Origin: Pelagibacteraceae bacterium AG-325-J17
Lineage (GTDB): Bacteria; Pseudomonadota; Alphaproteobacteria; Pelagibacterales; Pelagibacteraceae
Length of the DNA: 64,000 nucleotides
Direction of reading: 5' to 3'
Assembly: GCA_003282825.1 (NCBI GenBank)
Contig: QBYM01000001.1
Span: 56,567-120,566 of the forward strand
Shown: piece by piece, positions 1,254 through 28,663 of the stretch
Layout of the letters: the number at the start of each line of letters is the position of its first letter
Numbering within the stretch: position 1 is the stretch's first letter
The notes under the pieces: generated by a model
Seen by the model: the letters and a program-made list of their open reading frames with translations, nothing else
Told to the model about the DNA's origin: nothing
Database searches by the model: none
Made by a program: the position numbers and the translations under genes

Positions 1254-2642
1254 ATGAAATTAAGAAAAGAATTCGATAGCATTGGCTCAATAAATGTTCC
1301 TGGTGATAAATATTGGGGTGCTTCAACACAAAGATCAAAAAAATATTTTGATATTGGTGAATTTTTAGTAAGACCAGTTTTAATCAAATCAATAGCTATT
1401 ATTAAAAAAGCTGCTGCAATAGTTCATGGTAAAGAAAAACAAATCTTGCCACAAATTTCAAAAGCTATCATAAAAGCATCTAATGAAGTTATATCTGGTA
1501 AGTTAGATGAACATTTTCCTCTAAAAGTTTGGCAAACAGGATCTGGTACTCAAACAAATATGAATGTAAATGAAGTCATAGCAAACAGAGCAATTGAAAT
1601 TTTAGGGGGTAAAAAGGGTTCCAAAAAACCTGTACACCCTAATGATCATGTCAATAAATCTCAATCTACCAATGATGTTTTTCCTACTGCAATGCATATT
1701 GCTATCGCAATGGAAACTAAAAATAAACTATTACCTTCTTTGGAGTTATTGAATAAAGAATTAAAAAAAAAAGTTTCTAAGTTCAAAAATATAATTAAAG
1801 TAGGTAGAACTCACTTACAAGATGCAACGCCATTGTCTTTAGGACAAGAATTTTCAGGATACCAATCTCAGATAGAGGATTGTATTAGCAGAATAAAAAA
1901 TGCTTTGAATGAAATTTACTCATTAGCTCAAGGTGGCACTGCAGTTGGAACTGGAATTAATAGCAAAAAAGGTTTTGATAAAAAAATTATCAATGAAATA
2001 AAAAAGATTACCAAACTACCTTTTAAACCAACTAAAAATAAATTTGCATCTTTAGCAGCCCACGATGAAATAGTAAACTTTTCTGGTACTTTGAATACCA
2101 CAGCAGTTAGTTTAATGAAAATTGCAAACGATATTAGATTTTTAGGATCTGGTCCTAGAGCTGGATATGGTGAAATTATTTTGCCCGCCAATGAACCTGG
2201 TTCTTCAATAATGCCTGGTAAAATTAATCCAACACAATCAGAAGCAGTAACAATGGTATGTGTTAAAGTTATAGGGAATCATAATGGGATTACGATAGCA
2301 GGTTCTCATGGTCACTTTGAATTGAATGTTTTTAAGCCTTTAATTGCTCACAATATTTTACAATCAATTGATCTACTTGCTGACAGCACTAATAATTTTT
2401 CATTGTATTGTGTAAAAGGAATAAGGGCTGATAAAATTAAAATTAAAAAATTTTTAGATAATTCATTAATGCTTGTTACAGCCCTAGCACCTCATATTGG
2501 CTACGATAATGCTGCAAAGATTGCTAAATCAGCTTTAAAAAAAGGAACTACTTTAAAAGAGGAGGCTTTAAAAACTAACTTAATTAACAAAAAAGATTTC
2601 GAGAGAATTGTAGATCCTAAAAAAATGATTTACCCAAAATAA
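1254..2642 (+). CDS. fumC: Class II fumarate hydratase
   Basis: Motifs [38 protein letters not shown] and signature [13 protein letters not shown]. Confidence 0.96.
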
Positions 2643-4114
2643 GCTAAAAAAATATTATTAACAAAACTCTTAAAGGTAATTTTATTAAAAACTTTTTCAT
2701 CACTTGAATTGAAATTCATTATAAATCTCTCTAATTTATTGTTTGATTTATTATTAATCTTAAAATTATCAAATGAAACCTCTCTATCAATTATGTTATA
2801 ATTGAAATCAAATTCTATTTTTTCTAATTTTTTTCTTAAATCTTTATTAATTTGAAAATGTCTAAAGAAATTATCTTTTTCCTTGATAGTAATTAGCATT
2901 CTACCATTTAAATTAATTGAGTCTTCATCATAATCTATTAAACCTTCAAGTAATGAAAGACTTATGCTTTCTTTCCATTTAATATTTGACTCAGAAAAAG
3001 TTAAATCGCCTTCCTCAATTTTCAATTTTAAAACTAAATCTGTGAAACGATCAAAATCAACTATTTTTTTAATATTAATATTTATTTCAGCATTTAAATT
3101 TTCATTACTAATTATTTGAGTTTTGATAATATCATTTAATAGAGAATTATTGATCAAATCTGAAAGCTTTAAGTTTTGATAATTTAAATTTGAGACCATA
3201 TAAAATGGTTTAAATTCAATATTCCCATTATAAGTTCTATTCGAGTCCTCTAAAGAAAAATCTAATGAATTTTTTTTAAGCTTATAATTTATAAGGTTAT
3301 TTCTATTTTTAAAATTTATTTTTAAAAATCCAATCTTATTTTCTTTTCTATAATTAACTTGATTTTCAATTTTCAACCTTAATTTATTTAAAACTAATGT
3401 TGTAAATGAGGTTTGATTTAATTTATCATTTTTAATTGTTATTTTGTATGGGATATTAAAAATCTTATTTTTTGATGAATAAACATTTTTTAGATTATTA
3501 AAGTCAAAATAGAATTTACTGTTATCTATTTGATTTATTAACAAAACCTCTTCATCTTTATCTAAAAAAAAAATACTACTATTTTTAATGATAAGTTTTT
3601 GTCTACTTGGCTCAGCTTCTAAAATATTTTTAAAAAAGTTTAAATCTGATTTTTGAATATTAAATTCTAGTTTATTAAAAATTAAATCTTTCATTTGAAT
3701 TTGATCAAACTTAAAAAAATTTTTAAACCCTATAAAAATTTTTAAATTATCTGCAAGTGCTATTTTTTTTTTGTCATTAAATATAGATAAATCTTTTGCT
3801 ACAAAATGTGGCTTTGGAAATAAGCTATAATTAATTTTATCATTAAATTCTATTCTAATTTGATATTTTAAAAAAACTTGATTCTTTATTTCTTTTTGAA
3901 TTAAATCTTTATTGTATGCTGTTGGAACTAAAAAGTAAGCAAGAGTCAAAAAAATAATTCCTGTAAATACGAAAATAACTCTATTATCACTGGTGAATTG
4001 AAATTTTTTAGGATTCGAGATGAATGATCTCAGCTTGTTAAAATAGCTTTCTATTAAATTATTTATAGATAAGATTTGTTTTCCAATTTTTTTAAATGAT
4101 AAATTTTTTCCCAT
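2630..4114 (-). CDS. AsmA-like membrane-anchored protein
   Basis: N-terminal TM segment followed by a beta-rich repeat region; '[20 protein letters not shown]' resembles the AsmA N-terminal region. Confidence 0.55.
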
Positions 4115-10783: not shown

Positions 10784-11704
10784 CTATGCAATCGATCTTA
10801 ATAAACTTTTATTTATTATAGTGTGTGGAAGATTTCTTTCTTGAATTTCAATGATTGAAAAATTTTCTTTATTTTGGAATACCTTTTTCAATAATTGATT
10901 GGTTAAATAATGGCCACCCTGAGAACAATTTACACTAGCTACAATTCTATAGCCACTGGTGTAAAGATCACCAATACAATCAAGTATTTTATGATTAACA
11001 AATTCTTTGGAATTTCTAAGTTTTTCTTTGTTTAATATTTCAGAACCTTTTACTACAACTGCATTATCTAGGCTTCCACCTTTTGCCAGTCCATTTTTTT
11101 TAATTTTTTCTATATCTTCATATAAACAAAAAGTTCTAGAGTTAAAAATGTCATTCAAATCATCCTCATAAACATTAACTTTGTTTTTTTGATTTCCTAT
11201 TACAGGATTATCATATTTTAATTGAAAATTTATATCTAAACTTAACTTAGAGGGTTCAATAGATATTGATCTTTCACCCTCATTGAATGAAATCTTTTTT
11301 TTAATTTTTATAATCTTAATTGGGACTTCACTTTGTTTTAATCCACTAATGATTAACTTTTCAATAAATTCTTTTGCTGAACCATCTAAAATGGGAACTT
11401 CTTCATTATCAATTTCAATTAAAGCATTGTCTATTCCCAATCCAAATAATGCACCCATTAAATGTTCTATCGTAGAAACTCTAACTCCAAAATCATTAGA
11501 TATTGTGGTATTAAGTGAGGTATTGGTGACATTTGCAAAACTTGGAAATATTAGATTATTATTTTTTAAATCAACTCTTTTAAATACAATTCCACTGTTA
11601 GGTTCCGAAGGATTGATGGAAATATTAACAATTTGGCCACTATGAAGACCTATTCCTGTAAATTTTACAGGATCGTTAATTGTTTTTTGGTTTAATAAAG
11701 TCAC
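10784..11704 (-). CDS. lpxC: UDP-3-O-acyl-N-acetylglucosamine deacetylase
   Basis: QKTINDPVKFTGIGLHSGQ, STIEHLMGALFGLGIDNALIEIDNEEVPILDGSA, HKILDCIGDL. Confidence 0.97.
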   Translation of the reverse strand: MTLLNQKTINDPVKFTGIGLHSGQIVNISINPSEPNSGIVFKRVDLKNNNLIFPSFANVTNTSLNTTISNDFGVRVSTIEHLMGALFGLGIDNALIEIDNEEVPILDGSAKEFIEKLIISGLKQSEVPIKIIKIKKKISFNEGERSISIEPSKLSLDINFQLKYDNPVIGNQKNKVNVYEDDLNDIFNSRTFCLYEDIEKIKKNGLAKGGSLDNAVVVKGSEILNKEKLRNSKEFVNHKILDCIGDLYTSGYRIVASVNCSQGGHYLTNQLLKKVFQNKENFSIIEIQERNLPHTIINKSLLRSIA

Positions 11705-11767: not shown

Positions 11768-12472
11768 TTAACTAAAAAGGTTAAAAAATTTTTCAAAAAA
11801 ACCCTTACTTTTTAGGGTTTTATTGACTAATGATATCTCATTTTTGTTATAACCTGAAATTATTCTGCTTGCAGTTGTATAAATATTTGGATTTTGTTGA
11901 TCTTGAAACTGTTTAATATACTCAGCATTTAATATTTGATTTACTAAAATGTGATACCTTTTTAGAATTGACTCATAATTTTCAATCAAATTTTTGGATA
12001 AACATATAAATTTAATGTCTAAAGAAAAGTTATTACACTTTAAATTTTCAGGTAAAAAAGAATAGTCTTTACCATCAATTTGATAATTTTCTATTAACAT
12101 ATGAATGATTTTTTTATCCTTAAAACTAAATTGACACAAATTTTTTAAAACATTTAATGGATTTATTAAGTTTTCTTGAGATATAAAATTACCATTGTGA
12201 GCTTTTTTAATTGAAATTGCGATTGGAAAAAATTCTCTATTATCTAAAATTATGTATGTATCTTTAACAAAATTTTTTAAATTTTTTTCTATTTTTAAGA
12301 TATTTTGTGCAAGAAATTCATCCAATATTTTTAATTTAGAGTCTTCATTATCATCATTCAATAATTTTTCTTCTTTAAAAATAACTTCAAATGTTTTTTT
12401 TTTAATAACACAAATTACTAATTTTTTTTTTTCTATAAATAAATAGGTCTCAAATTTTAGTGCCTCATTCAT
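11768..12472 (-). CDS. Short FtsA-like protein (apparently domain 1A remnant + 1C/SHS2-like region + C-terminal amphipathic segment)
   Basis: Located in the ftsA slot directly downstream of ftsQ. 'KKIIHMLIENYQIDGKDYSFLPENLKCNNFSLDIKFICLSKNLIENYESILKRYHILVNQIL' resembles the FtsA region (...ilH.lp.eY.vDg...i.dP.gm.g..Lev..hivt....nl.k.i...gl.v..lv...); C-terminus 'KGFFEKFFNLFS' resembles a membrane-targeting amphipathic helix. Only 234 aa. Confidence 0.65.
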   Translation of the reverse strand: MNEALKFETYLFIEKKKLVICVIKKKTFEVIFKEEKLLNDDNEDSKLKILDEFLAQNILKIEKNLKNFVKDTYIILDNREFFPIAISIKKAHNGNFISQENLINPLNVLKNLCQFSFKDKKIIHMLIENYQIDGKDYSFLPENLKCNNFSLDIKFICLSKNLIENYESILKRYHILVNQILNAEYIKQFQDQQNPNIYTTASRIISGYNKNEISLVNKTLKSKGFFEKFFNLFS

Positions 12473-13133
12473 AAGTAATTACCTGATTTTGAGGTCGAAC
12501 ATCAATAGATTTAATATTATCAAATTGCTTTTCATTTAATAAATTTAAAGATAATTCTAGAGACTTTTCTATATTTTCAATTGGTAATTTAATTAAGACT
12601 CCTGAAGATGTTTCTATATCCCATCTACCAGAAGGAAAAAAAAATAAATTTTCAATATCTTTGTAATCTAAATTTGAATTATCAATTATTCTTTTTAAAG
12701 ATAAGAATTTATCAATATTTGGGTCACCAAAAATATATGGCAAATCTTTTAATTTACCTTCTGCCTCAATTAGTTTTCCATTTGATCCAACATAAAAGCT
12801 TTTTCCTCTTTTGCTTAAATGTGCCAATAACTTAGTTTCAGTTATCTTAATTTCTAAAGAGGAAGGATATCTTTTTGAAATTACATATTTCTCAATCAAA
12901 TTATTTGAATTTAATAATTTTGTAACTTTTAGTTTATCTAGATGAAATAATGTACCCATTTTAAATAAATCTAAACTTTTTTGAAATTCTTTATTTTCAA
13001 TTGCTAACCCTTCAATTTTAATTTTTTCGATATTTGGAAATTTTAATTGAGCTAAATTCTTATTATTCAATGATCCAAAAATTATAAATAAAAAAAAATA
13101 TACTAAAATTTTTTTACTTATTTGTTGAGGCAT
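12465..13133 (-). CDS. ftsQ: Cell division protein FtsQ
   Basis: POTRA-like 'FPNIEKIKIEGLAIENKEFQKSL', 'KRYPSSLEIKITETKLLAHLSKRGKSFYVGSNGKLIE', synteny with ddl and murB. Confidence 0.88.
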   Translation of the reverse strand: MPQQISKKILVYFFLFIIFGSLNNKNLAQLKFPNIEKIKIEGLAIENKEFQKSLDLFKMGTLFHLDKLKVTKLLNSNNLIEKYVISKRYPSSLEIKITETKLLAHLSKRGKSFYVGSNGKLIEAEGKLKDLPYIFGDPNIDKFLSLKRIIDNSNLDYKDIENLFFFPSGRWDIETSSGVLIKLPIENIEKSLELSLNLLNEKQFDNIKSIDVRPQNQVITYE

Positions 13134-19797: not shown

Positions 19798-20882
19798 TAT
19801 CTTAATTTAAGTGTAGCTAAGCCTACCATTGCCAAAATTATCGAAATAATCCAAAATCTGATTACAACAGTTGACTCTGGCCAGCCTTTCTTTTCAAAAT
19901 GATGGTGTATTGGGGCCATTTTAAAAATTCTTTTTCCAGTAAGTTTGAATGAAATTACTTGAACCATCACTGAAACTGCCTCTAAAACAAATAGACCTCC
20001 AGTAATTGCTAAAACAATTTCATGTTTAGTAATTATCCCCACTGCACCTAAAGATCCTCCTAGAGATAATGAGCCAGTGTCACCCATAAAAATTTTGGCA
20101 GGTGGAGCATTGAACCACAAAAAACCTAAACAGGAACCTATTATCGCTCCACAAAAAATTGAAATTTCACCTGTTCCTTTAATATAAGGAATATTTAAAT
20201 AGTCTGAAAATACTATGTTACCAGTTACGTAACTAATAAAAGCAAAACAAGCTGCAACTAGTATTACTGGTACTGTGGCTAGACCATCCAAACCATCGGT
20301 AAGATTAACAGCGTTTGATGATCCAATAATTACAAATACTGAAAAAGGAACAAAGAACCATCCAAGGTTTATGATTAAATCTTTAAAAAATGGAAAATAT
20401 AAATTCGTTACATCTTGATAGTCAACAAATTGTAGATAAAAAATAACTCCTATAATTGCTAATATTATTTGTAAAACAATTTTTAATTTCGATGAGATAC
20501 CTGAAGAGTTAGTAAATTTAATCTTTTTGTAATCATCATAGGCACCTAATAATCCAAAAGAGATTGCAATATATATACAAAATAAAATGTTAATATTAGA
20601 TAAATCTGCCCAACATAAAACTGATACAAGTAATCCTAATAAGATGATTACCCCCCCCATTGTTGGAGTACCAATTTTTTTTATAATATGATCTTCTGGT
20701 CCATCATCACGGATTGGGTTATAAATTTTTTGATTAGAAGAAAATTTTATAAATGGACCTCCAATTATTAAAACTATTAACAAAGATGTAAAAACCGACA
20801 AACCAGTTCGAAATGTTAAATACTTAAAAACATTTAAAAATCCAAATGTATCTACAAAATTTAATAAAAATTGGTAAAGCAT
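19797..20882 (-). CDS. mraY: Phospho-N-acetylmuramoyl-pentapeptide transferase
   Basis: IGTPTMGGVIILLG, GAYDDYKKI, SSNAVNLTDGLDGLA, FMGDTGSLSLGGSLG, APIHHHFEKKGWPESTVVIRFWI. Confidence 0.97.
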   Translation of the reverse strand: MLYQFLLNFVDTFGFLNVFKYLTFRTGLSVFTSLLIVLIIGGPFIKFSSNQKIYNPIRDDGPEDHIIKKIGTPTMGGVIILLGLLVSVLCWADLSNINILFCIYIAISFGLLGAYDDYKKIKFTNSSGISSKLKIVLQIILAIIGVIFYLQFVDYQDVTNLYFPFFKDLIINLGWFFVPFSVFVIIGSSNAVNLTDGLDGLATVPVILVAACFAFISYVTGNIVFSDYLNIPYIKGTGEISIFCGAIIGSCLGFLWFNAPPAKIFMGDTGSLSLGGSLGAVGIITKHEIVLAITGGLFVLEAVSVMVQVISFKLTGKRIFKMAPIHHHFEKKGWPESTVVIRFWIISIILAMVGLATLKLR

Positions 20883-23722
20883 TAATTCAGACCCTTTAAA
20901 TCTTTCACTATTCTATTGAAACCTGTTGCATTTGAGGCTTTGATCATCAAATAATCATTATTATTTAATTCATCTCTTATCAAATTAATAATTTGTGATT
21001 TATTTTGCAAAATTCTACCTTTTTTAGATTTTGTAAGTTGATTAAATATAGATGACACCTTGGTTCCTTTAACAAAAACTTTATCTACCTTAGTTTGATT
21101 AATTATAGGTATAATAGATTGATGAAGTTTTTTTGAGTGATTTCCTAGTTCCAACATATCACCGAGCAAAAGGTATTTTTTTGATTTTTTTGTGTTAATT
21201 TTATCATAATTAAGTATTGCAGATTTTAATGATAATGGATTTGAATTGTAACTTTCATCTATTAAATTAATATTTTTGCCATCAACTTTAATTTTAGAAA
21301 AGTCTCCTCTTCCATTAGGTACTTCAAAATTTAAAAAAATATTTTTATTCAATTCAAAGATATTTATATTAATATTAATAACAGCTATTGCAGCTAAAAT
21401 ATTATATACATTATTTTGAAAATCATTTGAAATTAAAAAATATTTTTTTAAATTATTTATCTTAATGTAAATTTCAAAATTATCATTTTTTTTCACACAA
21501 TTTAATAATTTAACATCAGATGAAGGATTTTTAATTCCAAAAGAAATTATTTTAAGATTATTTTTAAAAGCTTTTTTTTTATGTAGTTTAAAAAATTTAT
21601 CATCTGCATTTAAAATAACAATACCACCAGATTTAGTATTATTAATAATTTCAGATTTGGCTAAAGCAATTTGTTTTATATTTTTAAAATTTTTTGCGTG
21701 TGCGTAGTTTACGTTAGTTATAACGCTAACATCTGGTTGTATGATTTTTGTGAGATAGTCAATTTCACCTTTTTTATCCATTCCAACTTCTAAAACACCA
21801 AAATTATCTTTACTAGTTAAATTAAAAAGACTTAAGGGGACTCCATATTTATTGTTATATGATTTAGGAGAGATGCTTACTTTTGAAATTTTTTTCAATG
21901 TGTTGCCCAATAATTCTTTCAATGTAGTTTTGCCACAACTCCCTGTTATAGCAATTATTTTAGCATCTATGTTTTTTCTAAAAATTTTAGAGATATCTGT
22001 CAAAAATTTTAGAGAATCTTTTACTTTAATTTGTTTAGATTTGTTTAAACTATTTTGAAATCGATTTACAATAGCTAAGGACGCCCTATTTTTAAATGAT
22101 TGTTTTACAAATTTATTTCCATCATTTTTTTCACCTTTTATTGCAAAAAAAATATCATCTTTTTTCACTTCGTTTGAATTAATTTTTGCTTGCTTAATAG
22201 ATAATGATGAAGAAACTCTTTTATTACCTGAAATCTCTTTAATTATATTTAACTTTAAATTATCAGATAAACTTAGGTTTTTAATTTTAATTGCTTTAAG
22301 AATAATTTTTTTATCTGAAAAATAAATTTTTCGCTTACCTATATCCTGAATTTTTTCATGCCCCTTACCAGCAACTAATAAAATTTCTCCAGTATTCAAA
22401 TTTTTTGTTGCTTCAAATATTGCTTTCGCTCTATTAGAAATCTCAATTATTTTTTTTCTCTTAATTCCTTTTTTAATATCTCTTCTAATTTTATCTGGGT
22501 TCTCAAATCTAGGATTATCATCAGTAAGATAAATTTTATCAGAGAAATCAGATGCAATTTTACCCATTTTTGATCTTTTATTTTGATCTCTATTTCCACC
22601 ACAACCAAATAATAAACAGAGCTTTTTATCTGGAAATTGTTCTCTAAGGTTTAAAAGGCAAGTTTTTAAGGCCTCTGGAGTATGTGCATAATCAAGAATT
22701 ATTTTTGATTTGTTTTTAATTTTACCAATCTTTTCAAATCTACCCTCTACTGGTTTAATTTTTTTAACAATATCTAAAATTTTTTTTAAATTAATAATTT
22801 TTTTAGCAGCAAATATTGCCATTAATATATTCTTTAATTGAATTTTCCCTATCAAGTTGAGACTTATCTCTTTTATGGAGTTGTTATATTTGATCTTTAG
22901 TAATTGAATTTCACCCTTAAAACTATGAGACAAAATTCTGAAATCATTTTTTTTATCATTCAATGTAATTATTTTTAATTTTTTTTGTTTTGCAATTTTA
23001 TTAATTTTTTTAAATTCAGGTATTTTATCATCTGTTATTATATTCCCCTTTTTTTTGATAAGATTTCTAAATAGGTAAAGTTTTGCATTAAGATAATCAT
23101 TTAAATTTTTGTGATAATCTAAATGGTCTTGAGATAAATTTGTAAATATTCCAGAATTAAACCTTAAACCATCAAGTCTATTCTGTTTTAAGCCATGACT
23201 TGAAGCCTCCATAATAACATTGTCTATTCTTTGATGTTTAAGTTTTTTTAATAACTCACCTAATTGAATTGGATCGATTGTAGTATTAGATAAATCTAAA
23301 TTTAAACTATTGGACTTAACCCCCAAAGTTCCAATTGAGGCAACTCTTTTATTATTTAATTTTAAAATTTGATAATAAAAATCTGCAATAGATGATTTCC
23401 CGTTTGTTCCTGTAACGGCAATTAAATTTTTTGGTATTCTATTGAAAATTTTAAATGAAACTTCAGATAATAATTTTCTAATATTTCTTGTATAAATAAA
23501 CAAAATCCCATTTTGAAATTCTTTAACTTTTTTTTCAGTAACAATAATTCTTGAGCCTTTTTTAATCGCAATAGAGATAAAATTGTTTCCATCAATTTTA
23601 TTACCTTTGATAGCAAAAAAAATATTATTTTTTTTTAATTTAGAACTATTAAAGGATATTCCTGAAAAAAAGATATTTCCAAATTTTTTATTAATATTAG
23701 GGATGTAATCTTTCAGTAACAT
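20882..23722 (-). CDS. murEF: Fused MurE-MurF: UDP-MurNAc-tripeptide ligase (N-terminal) and UDP-MurNAc-tripeptide--D-Ala-D-Ala ligase (C-terminal)
   Basis: Single 946-aa ORF with two Mur-ligase P-loops: VTGTNGKSSIADFYYQIL and ITGSCGKTTLKELLGNTL. MurE part: MEASSHGLKQNRLDGL, DDNPRFENP (meso-DAP-type DNPR motif), GKGHEKIQ. MurF part: EVGMDKKGEIDYLTKIIQPDVSVITNVNYAH, DESYNSNPLSLKSAI, LLLGDMLELG. Gene symbol is descriptive. Confidence 0.93.
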   Translation of the reverse strand: MLLKDYIPNINKKFGNIFFSGISFNSSKLKKNNIFFAIKGNKIDGNNFISIAIKKGSRIIVTEKKVKEFQNGILFIYTRNIRKLLSEVSFKIFNRIPKNLIAVTGTNGKSSIADFYYQILKLNNKRVASIGTLGVKSNSLNLDLSNTTIDPIQLGELLKKLKHQRIDNVIMEASSHGLKQNRLDGLRFNSGIFTNLSQDHLDYHKNLNDYLNAKLYLFRNLIKKKGNIITDDKIPEFKKINKIAKQKKLKIITLNDKKNDFRILSHSFKGEIQLLKIKYNNSIKEISLNLIGKIQLKNILMAIFAAKKIINLKKILDIVKKIKPVEGRFEKIGKIKNKSKIILDYAHTPEALKTCLLNLREQFPDKKLCLLFGCGGNRDQNKRSKMGKIASDFSDKIYLTDDNPRFENPDKIRRDIKKGIKRKKIIEISNRAKAIFEATKNLNTGEILLVAGKGHEKIQDIGKRKIYFSDKKIILKAIKIKNLSLSDNLKLNIIKEISGNKRVSSSLSIKQAKINSNEVKKDDIFFAIKGEKNDGNKFVKQSFKNRASLAIVNRFQNSLNKSKQIKVKDSLKFLTDISKIFRKNIDAKIIAITGSCGKTTLKELLGNTLKKISKVSISPKSYNNKYGVPLSLFNLTSKDNFGVLEVGMDKKGEIDYLTKIIQPDVSVITNVNYAHAKNFKNIKQIALAKSEIINNTKSGGIVILNADDKFFKLHKKKAFKNNLKIISFGIKNPSSDVKLLNCVKKNDNFEIYIKINNLKKYFLISNDFQNNVYNILAAIAVINININIFELNKNIFLNFEVPNGRGDFSKIKVDGKNINLIDESYNSNPLSLKSAILNYDKINTKKSKKYLLLGDMLELGNHSKKLHQSIIPIINQTKVDKVFVKGTKVSSIFNQLTKSKKGRILQNKSQIINLIRDELNNNDYLMIKASNATGFNRIVKDLKGLN

Positions 23723-26736: not shown

Positions 26737-28194
26737 TTAATTTTTTTGTCTTCTTAAAAATGCTGGAATTTCAAGATCATCATCTTCTTGATCTTCTTCG
26801 GATGACCCCAGTAAATCATCTGAATTTTTTGTTTCAATATCTGAATTAAATAAATCTGGCTCATCTATATCAACACCAAATTCTTTTAAATCTCCTGAAA
26901 CTTCTTCTTTGTCTGATGAGTTTATTGCTTCTTCTGAAAAGGAAACTTCATTCTCCTCAGATGTGTTCTCAACAATATTTTCTACTTCTTGATTTTTGAG
27001 TAACTCTTCATGATACTGATTGTTAACCTCATCTATAGTTTCATTTTGATTTTCTGTGACAACTTCATTTTCAAGTTTTAAAGCATTTGCTCCATGAGTA
27101 ACTGGATTTGAATTGCTATTAGAAAATGAAAAAGATGCTGTGTGATTGTTTGAACCAAAATCAGAATATCCAGTATTACGATTTTGTATTCTATGCACCA
27201 TATTAACAACTGACTTAGATTCAGGTTGTTGATTGTCTAATGATGTAGCAACTATTGAAACTCTTATTTTACCTGCAAGAGCTTCATCAGTTATTGCACC
27301 TATAATAACTTCAGCATCAGCTTCAACTTCTGATCTAATTTTATTAACTACTTCATCAACTTCAAAAAGTTTAAGATCTTTTCCGCCAGTAATATTAACT
27401 AATAAACCTTTTGCTCCTTTAAGTGTATAATCGTCTATTAAAGGATTGCTAATTGCCATTTCAGTAGCCTGCATAGCTCTACCTTCTCCATCAGCTTCTC
27501 CTGTTCCCATCATGGCTTTACCCATTGATGCCATAACAGTTTCTACATCAGCAAAATCTAAATTAATTATTCCAGGTCTAACCATTAAGTCAGTTACACT
27601 TTGAACTCCATGCATCAAAACATTATTTGAAAGATTAAAAGACTCCTCAAATGTGGTTTGTTCATTTGCTATTTTAAATAAATTTTGATTTGGTATCACA
27701 ATTATTGTATCTACATGCTTTCTTAATTCCTCAAGACCAATTTGAGCTCTTCTCATTCTTGAAGGCCCTTCGTATAAGAAAGGAAGTGTAACTACACCTA
27801 CAGTAAGTATATTTAATTCTTTTGCTGCTCTAGCAATAACATGCGCTGCACCAGTTCCAGTTCCACCACCCATTCCTGCAGCGATGAAAACCATATTGGC
27901 ACCTTGCAAAATATTTACAATTTCATTTAAAGACTCATCAGCTGCAGCCTGTCCAATATCAAGCTTAGCACCTGCACCCAATCCTTTAGTTAAATTTAAA
28001 CCAATTTGAATTTTTGATTTTGCTTTACTATGCTTTAAATCTTGTGCGTCTGTATTTACAGCTATAAATTCAACTCCCTGCATTCCATTCTCAATCATCT
28101 CATTAATTGCATTTCCTCCTGCACCTCCAACTCCCATTACTAGAAGTCGTGGTTGCAACTCTTTAATCTCTGGTGCTCTTAAGTTAATTGTCAT
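26737..28194 (-). CDS. ftsZ: Cell division GTPase FtsZ
   Basis: GVGGAGGNAINEMI, GGGTGTGAA, NFADVETVM-like 'NLDFADVETVMASMGKAMMGTGEADGEGRA', conserved C-terminal peptide DDLEIPAFLRRQKN. Confidence 0.98.
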   Translation of the reverse strand: MTINLRAPEIKELQPRLLVMGVGGAGGNAINEMIENGMQGVEFIAVNTDAQDLKHSKAKSKIQIGLNLTKGLGAGAKLDIGQAAADESLNEIVNILQGANMVFIAAGMGGGTGTGAAHVIARAAKELNILTVGVVTLPFLYEGPSRMRRAQIGLEELRKHVDTIIVIPNQNLFKIANEQTTFEESFNLSNNVLMHGVQSVTDLMVRPGIINLDFADVETVMASMGKAMMGTGEADGEGRAMQATEMAISNPLIDDYTLKGAKGLLVNITGGKDLKLFEVDEVVNKIRSEVEADAEVIIGAITDEALAGKIRVSIVATSLDNQQPESKSVVNMVHRIQNRNTGYSDFGSNNHTASFSFSNSNSNPVTHGANALKLENEVVTENQNETIDEVNNQYHEELLKNQEVENIVENTSEENEVSFSEEAINSSDKEEVSGDLKEFGVDIDEPDLFNSDIETKNSDDLLGSSEEDQEDDDLEIPAFLRRQKN

Positions 28195-28195
28195 T

Positions 28196-28663
28196 TTATT
28201 CCCCCTCTTTATTGTTTAAATGTTTTTCCCATTTAAGGCTTGCTCGATTTATATTTGCTTTTTTTCTTGCACTAGCCCTAAATTTTTCAAAAGTTGTTGG
28301 TTCCCATATTTGAAAAGTTTTACCTTGACCAACAAACAACATGCTATTTTTTATTTTTGCATGTTTTAATAATTTTGTAGTGAGTGAAATTCTTCCTTCG
28401 CTATCAAATTGTAAATTTATACTTTCAGATAGTATTGATGTAGCAAAAAAATCTCTTTTTTCTTCAAAGGGATTTAGCTTATCTATTGTATTTGAAATTT
28501 TTTCTATTCTGTCTTGAGGCCACACTTCTATAGATTGATTATTAAATGATGGATAACAAATTACTCCATTGTATCCTAAATTAGATAAATAAGATCTATA
28601 GCTTGCAGGCACTGACACCCTTCCTTTTTTGTCTAATTTGTTTTCGTAGGTTGATAAAAACAT
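28196..28663 (-). CDS. mraZ: Transcriptional regulator MraZ
   Basis: MFLSTYENKLDKKGRVSVPASYR, second repeat LQFDSEGRISLTTKLLKHA. Confidence 0.95.
   Translation of the reverse strand: MFLSTYENKLDKKGRVSVPASYRSYLSNLGYNGVICYPSFNNQSIEVWPQDRIEKISNTIDKLNPFEEKRDFFATSILSESINLQFDSEGRISLTTKLLKHAKIKNSMLFVGQGKTFQIWEPTTFEKFRASARKKANINRASLKWEKHLNNKEGE

Follow-up and report, generated by a model that had tools for sequence, protein, structure and literature searches.

Canonical FtsA (TIGR01174), with structures available from T. maritima (1e4f/4a2a), E. coli (7q6d), and Vibrio maritimus (7q6f/7q6i), is a protein of ~370–430 aa encoded next to ftsQ. Its subdomain 2B is required for FtsZ binding, and subdomain 1C for the recruitment of FtsQ and FtsN as well as for self-interaction (PMC4281207). 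FtsN docks in the cleft between 1A and 1C, with lateral contacts made via 1C and longitudinal contacts via 2A/2B (PMC7613929). Laboratory deletions of E. coli FtsA subdomains, including 2B, fail to bind FtsZ, and the cells filament (cited in PMC4281207). Outside of FtsA, PilM (2ych, 5eou) is an ATP-binding protein with both lobes. Its 1A-1C architecture includes a peptide cleft that accommodates a bitopic membrane protein's tail (PMC7613929). The cytoplasmic domain of GspL from type II secretion (4pht, 5tkw), which belongs to a different family and system, is an actin-like fold used as a membrane-linked adaptor.

Compared to these proteins, the window, a stretch of 64,000 nucleotides from Pelagibacteraceae bacterium AG-325-J17, encodes a markedly reduced FtsA of 234 aa in the same ftsQ-adjacent slot. 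Like canonical FtsA, this short FtsA has 1A and 1C in the usual fold and order, the final helix of 1A, and an amphipathic helix at the C terminus, but it lacks 2A, 2B, and the phosphate-1, phosphate-2, and adenosine motifs. It resembles PilM in its 1A-1C architecture and peptide cleft, and unlike PilM it retains only one lobe and no ATP motifs. Loss of 2B is common to the short FtsA and the E. coli deletions, whereas the loss in SAR11 arose naturally, extends to the whole of lobe II, and is kept by selection. The GspL domain is of similar size, and its structures match the model of the short FtsA with target-normalized TM scores of 0.42, 0.40, and 0.34. It is not known to bind ATP and has lost other parts of the actin fold than the short FtsA. 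SAR11 bacteria are abundant in the ocean, and within the same genus long SAR11 FtsAs occupy the same orthologous position with the same 1A/1C and tail sequence. They are the type from which the short form directly derives but keep lobe II and intact ATP motifs, and they provide a natural control. The features of the locus are as follows.

11768–12472, minus strand: ftsA-S, the 234-aa lobe-I-only FtsA (ORF; TIGR01174 E 1.4e-4; AF2 model and Foldseek matches to FtsA; conserved orthologues)
12465–13133, minus strand: ftsQ, upstream neighbour (PF03799 E 2e-7, PF08478 E 1.3e-6)
10784–11704, minus strand: lpxC, downstream neighbour (PF03331 E 4e-93)
26737–28194, minus strand: ftsZ, between mraZ and mraW and apart from ftsA (ORF)
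26740–26772, minus strand: FtsZ C-terminal FtsA-docking peptide EIPAFLRRQKN, intact
12239–12472, minus strand: residues 1–78 of the short FtsA, first part of actin-like subdomain 1A with eroded phosphate-1 loop (alignment A1; AF2 model)
11939–12238, minus strand: residues 79–178, subdomain 1C, SHS2-like (TIGR01174 match at residues 114–184; profile A2 to 7q6d; modelled strands and helices at 82–182)
11885–11902, minus strand: excision point at about residues 191–196 (alignment A1; excised block mapped against the long FtsA L047)
11837–11884, minus strand: residues 197–212, final helix of 1A plus the first part of the linker, matching by homology the C terminus of long FtsA (G.N..EV; alignment A1; ICESGLK kept in L264 and L265)
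11771–11806, minus strand: residues 223–234, KGFFEKFFNLFS, putative C-terminal amphipathic membrane-targeting helix (conservation, model, hydrophobic moment)

The short ftsA shares 8 bases with the 3' end of ftsQ, and 63 bases separate the gene from lpxC. Named by domain matches and sequence motifs, the genes of the cluster follow the order mraZ, ftsZ, mraW, ftsL, ftsI, a fused Mur ligase pair, mraY, murD, ftsW, murG, murC, murB, ddl, ftsQ, short ftsA, lpxC, bamD, and ligA. Here, ftsZ does not directly follow ftsA but lies at the opposite end of the dcw cluster (26737–28663), ~14 kb away. The Mur ligase pair is a 946-aa protein (20882–23722) with two sets of Mur ligase middle and C-terminal domains and is probably a MurE-MurF fusion. 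The nearest named relatives of the 234-aa protein (89–91% identical) come from single-cell genomes labelled Pelagibacteraceae.

Profile searches recognize the protein only in part: TIGR01174 positions 111–181 match residues 114–184 (E 1.4e-4), scoring 21 bits where the curated cut-off is 175.85 bits, and the SHS2_FTSA score (15 bits) also falls below its cut-off (25.4 bits). Among the 40 SAR11 relatives in alignment A1 (23 short and 17 long forms), 34 match TIGR01174 at E ≤ 0.01. The AlphaFold2 model of the 234-aa protein, built with 40 homologues, reached a pLDDT of 87 and a pTM of 0.81, and each of the top 19 Foldseek matches in the PDB is an FtsA chain, led by 4a2a_A (E 5.7e-12; query-normalized TM 0.62; 188 aligned columns, target length 372 residues). 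These structural alignments span about half of each target. The long L047 from the same genus, used as a positive control, was modelled as a two-lobed FtsA that aligns over all of 1e4g (381 columns). In both model and Foldseek alignments, subdomain 1C sits in the FtsA-specific position together with 1A. Searched against PDB sequences, the long-form profile found T. maritima FtsA (1e4f, E 8.9e-17) and the short-form profile (A2) found residues 99–195 of E. coli FtsA (7q6d, E 0.0011). Furthermore, all loci share the slot between ftsQ and lpxC, and the short FtsA is nested in the tree of long FtsA. The 234-aa ORF is an FtsA orthologue by descent. Because the ATP site, the 2B dock, and the curated score all fail, it is better named a lobe-I FtsA variant than a standard member.

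In alignment A1, short and long forms are collinear from the N terminus to the end of 1C, and again over the final helix of 1A and the tail. The block absent from the short form comprises ~143 residues, corresponding to L047 residues 196–338 (PF14450 domain 2A/2B, i.e., lobe II); measured against 16 long forms, 141–162 residues are missing. Since PF14450 begins at residue 203 of L047, the missing block opens just before it, at the lobe boundary. In the intermediate forms L264 and L265, which keep ICESGLK, the junction reads SNYAKSFTKNKSFA followed by NICESGLKLMQG, with SSYVKSLNYKDQ ... DICESGLKVIKG as the L047 counterpart. The modelled elements of residues 1–78 are strands 7–13, 17–24, 30–37, and 71–76 and a helix at 43–65. 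Conservation in the short forms is equal for 1C and 1A (0.44 each; 1C is not higher), and the C-terminal tail is the most conserved block in both short and long forms. The tail is modelled as a helix at residues 225–233 and has a hydrophobic moment of 0.56 (median at the 93rd percentile within its own protein). As shuffled versions of this Phe-rich peptide attain the same moment in 7% of cases, amphipathicity alone is a weak argument; that the tail would bind the membrane is suggested mainly by homology and conservation. By sequence and structure prediction, 1A (minus its ATP loops), 1C, and the membrane helix are present in the short FtsA, and 2A and 2B are absent. These results confirm the preliminary description in placing an FtsA-like ORF directly after ftsQ and in its proposal that 2A/2B and the nucleotide-binding residues were lost while 1C and a membrane-type helix were kept. 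None of the three findings that it named as refuting came up: the fold is that of FtsA, lobe II was not found elsewhere in 23 genomes, and the length is conserved in many species. Its picture of an SHS2-like region plus tail as all that is left was too narrow, as homology to FtsA (domain 1A) extends to the N-terminal 78 residues.

At the site of the phosphate-1 loop, the 234-aa protein reads FLFIEKKKL, where long forms have xDxGSxxx. The Asp-x-Gly pair of this loop is lost in all 38 short forms first analysed and kept in all 24 long forms of the genus. L264 and L265 stand apart from these 38 and still contain the phosphate-1 Asp (IDLSS and LDLSS, respectively), as expected of less eroded forms. 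The phosphate-2 and adenosine segments lie in the deleted part (alignment A1). No actin-type motif was found in the 234-aa protein, while long FtsA of the same genus has intact DxG, GG..IT.DIS, and GxGS motifs. In two other genera of the family, full-length FtsAs (396–399 aa; L101 5983–7173 and L103 5503–6696, and also L278 ~2451–3648) likewise lack the phosphate-1, phosphate-2, and adenosine motifs; they are apparent pseudo-ATPases and may mark a second path away from ATP in SAR11.

Dozens of species carry the short form (230–246 aa), in each case between ftsQ and lpxC. In an order-wide sample, our count from the locus list gave, for this genus, 67 full short forms and 31 long ones, the long FtsAs of sister lineages measuring 363–401 aa (e.g., L047, L050, and L046). 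Long frames are also found in the remaining genera of the family with a full frame listed and in the second family of the order; FtsA frames of Alphaproteobacteria outside the order, only few of which were detected with the profile used, measure 407–452 aa. Partial open frames of 76–179 aa in other genomes proved to be contig ends. Complete loss of ftsA was likewise rejected for genomes without a match, those examined showing a missing locus, a contig end, or a divergent long FtsA. Among the long genes, L038 (5383–6531; G010) is interrupted by an in-frame stop that lies within a poly-A run at the boundary of lobes I and II.

The draft status of the window's genome (77% complete) raises the question of an assembly, frameshift, or annotation artefact. 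The short form is, however, intact in the single-contig genomes G063, G077, G095, and G123, and dozens of assemblies from single cells and metagenomes also contain it, among them relatives at 91% identity; the single-contig genomes refute this reading, to which we assign a negligible probability. A split of FtsA into two genes, with lobe II encoded elsewhere, would be in line with gene fission being common in general. Yet the window's own genome contains no second ftsA, its sole PF14450 match being MreB, and a lobe II profile found no match in 23 short-form genomes (five of them single-contig). The only signals there were two sub-significant and far shorter matches of 41 residues (best E 0.26), while all three long-form controls were recovered at 3e-35 or better. 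Unless lobe II has diverged beyond recognition, fission is rejected, and we regard it as very improbable. A remnant decaying towards loss could explain the eroded ATP loop and the frameshifted genes in the complete single-contig genome G012 (at a homopolymer run; L032 5966–6666) and in the draft G359 (L099 5998–6700), which may be either sequencing errors or recent losses. Against decay, the median dN/dS of close pairs is 0.197 for the short ftsA, similar to ftsQ (0.186) and higher than lpxC (0.068), and 0.146 for the window's ftsA and a 91.5% identical relative. Moreover, 78 of the 79 named loci with a full ORF encode 230–240 aa, in the same slot across many species. Apparent absences of ftsA, seen in eight same-genus genomes that are at least 90% complete, were traced in the examined cases either to contig ends or to a locus that is missing. 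Together, dN/dS and length rule out a pseudogene at the population level, and decay towards loss is highly unlikely. We are nearly certain of the identity of the short protein as FtsA, its domain content, and its purifying selection.

The history of the short form is less straightforward. In the ftsA tree, built from shared columns with denser sampling, all short forms fall into one clade (99/99) beside the long L047; this tree comprises 233 columns, and relaxed constraint could draw short forms together. By the neighbouring genes murC, murB, ddl, lpxC, bamD, ligA, ftsW, and murG, the short form is dispersed across several lineages, and its grouping in one clade is rejected (p-AU 4e-8 with 75 rows; 2.5e-72 with 47 rows). 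This strong conflict with the ftsA tree suggests that the short allele probably spread by recombination. L039 (1015–4371; G023) is a mosaic, with murG, murC, and murB 74–85% identical to the window and the other cluster genes mostly at 60–65%, and is a case of recombination inside the division cluster. Repeated independent excision of lobe II, which concerns the history and not the function of the protein, would account for the rejected clade and for the position of L083, whose similarity to the long sister (45.7%) exceeds that to the other short forms; on the neighbour-gene tree, four to five changes are needed. We consider this possible yet rather improbable, given the single clade next to L047, the identical junction common to all short forms, and the recombination evident in the cluster. 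One excision followed by allele exchange appears to be the simplest reading of these sequences, and a better one than several excisions. Lobe II would have been excised once from an L047-type long FtsA, the ATP loop would then have eroded, and the allele would have spread among SAR11 lineages via recombination of the division cluster.

We compared FtsZ from the window (26737–28194) and from L115–L142, using complete FtsZ ends. The C-terminal EIPAFLR is present in 17/17 short-FtsA and 11/11 long-FtsA genomes, revealing no tie between FtsA type and FtsZ tail. A P-x-L-F motif in the FtsZ linker upstream of the peptide occurs in the same 17/17 and 11/11 genomes and is a possible second docking motif. 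Since the tail is unchanged in short-form genomes, something still reads it. The FtsZ C-terminal peptide has further ligands in other bacteria. A SepF domain was found in 0/19 short-form genomes, and ZapA, present in 19/19, is not a membrane anchor. The preliminary description had proposed an FtsZ- and FtsN-interaction module. The FtsZ part does not hold for the documented site, as the FtsZ-binding subdomain 2B (PMC4281207) is deleted. Of the FtsN part, the 1A-1C cleft is kept (PMC7613929), but no FtsN was detected in SAR11, where the only SPOR proteins were RlpA-like lipoproteins with weak SPOR matches; one expected client of the short FtsA would therefore be missing.

Taken as a whole, the data are best explained by a working FtsA reduced to lobe I, a reading we hold to be probable. 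On the published contact map (PMC7613929), the short FtsA retains the recruiting and membrane parts without the ATP, filament, and FtsZ parts. Without lobe II, the ATP cleft would not close, no longitudinal actin-like filament would form through 2A/2B contacts, and the FtsZ tail would not bind at 2B. The protein would sit on the membrane, possibly dimerizing through 1C, while the 1A-1C cleft and the 1C surface would bring in downstream divisome proteins such as FtsQ, encoded by the adjacent gene, and any FtsN-like partner. Z-ring tethering, the step normally coupled by FtsA, would fall to a different protein that recognizes the FtsZ peptide, which is unchanged. With the step from anatomy to function in mind, we lean slightly towards such an ATP-free and filament-free adaptor between membrane and divisome. 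What speaks against it is that no replacement FtsZ tether was found, given the distribution of SepF and the nature of ZapA, that FtsN as a client was not detected, and that conservation in the short forms is no higher for 1C than for 1A. The short FtsA could instead bind the tail in a new way and still tether the Z-ring, holding the FtsZ peptide via a remodelled 1A/1C surface without ATP or filaments. The intact EIPAFLR in all 17 short-form genomes, the lack of SepF, and the membrane helix as the best-kept part would fit this alternative. However, the known dock 2B is gone, and E. coli FtsA without 2B fails to bind FtsZ (PMC4281207). Because long-form genomes conserve the peptide just as well, and because further ligands for it exist in other bacteria, its conservation does not point to the short FtsA, and we view continued tethering as a tentative and unlikely option.

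In E. coli, it is still debated whether the essential acts of FtsA are to bind ATP and to form filaments. We found no report of a shortened FtsA in SAR11 or Pelagibacter in the full text of open-licence PMC papers (subscription literature was outside this scope). In SAR11, a natural deletion of the entire ATP/FtsZ lobe is maintained by selection alongside same-genus relatives that keep the lobe, which makes the question testable by swaps. The broader view, which we consider about evenly balanced, is that much of SAR11 divides with an FtsA that neither binds ATP, polymerizes, nor binds FtsZ at the known site, that the conserved role of FtsA is that of a 1A-1C adaptor, and that the Z-ring is tethered by another protein reading the FtsZ tail. 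The short FtsA suggests that ATP binding and the grip on the division ring can be dispensed with, and it points towards an FtsZ tether, as yet undiscovered, in this highly abundant bacterial group.
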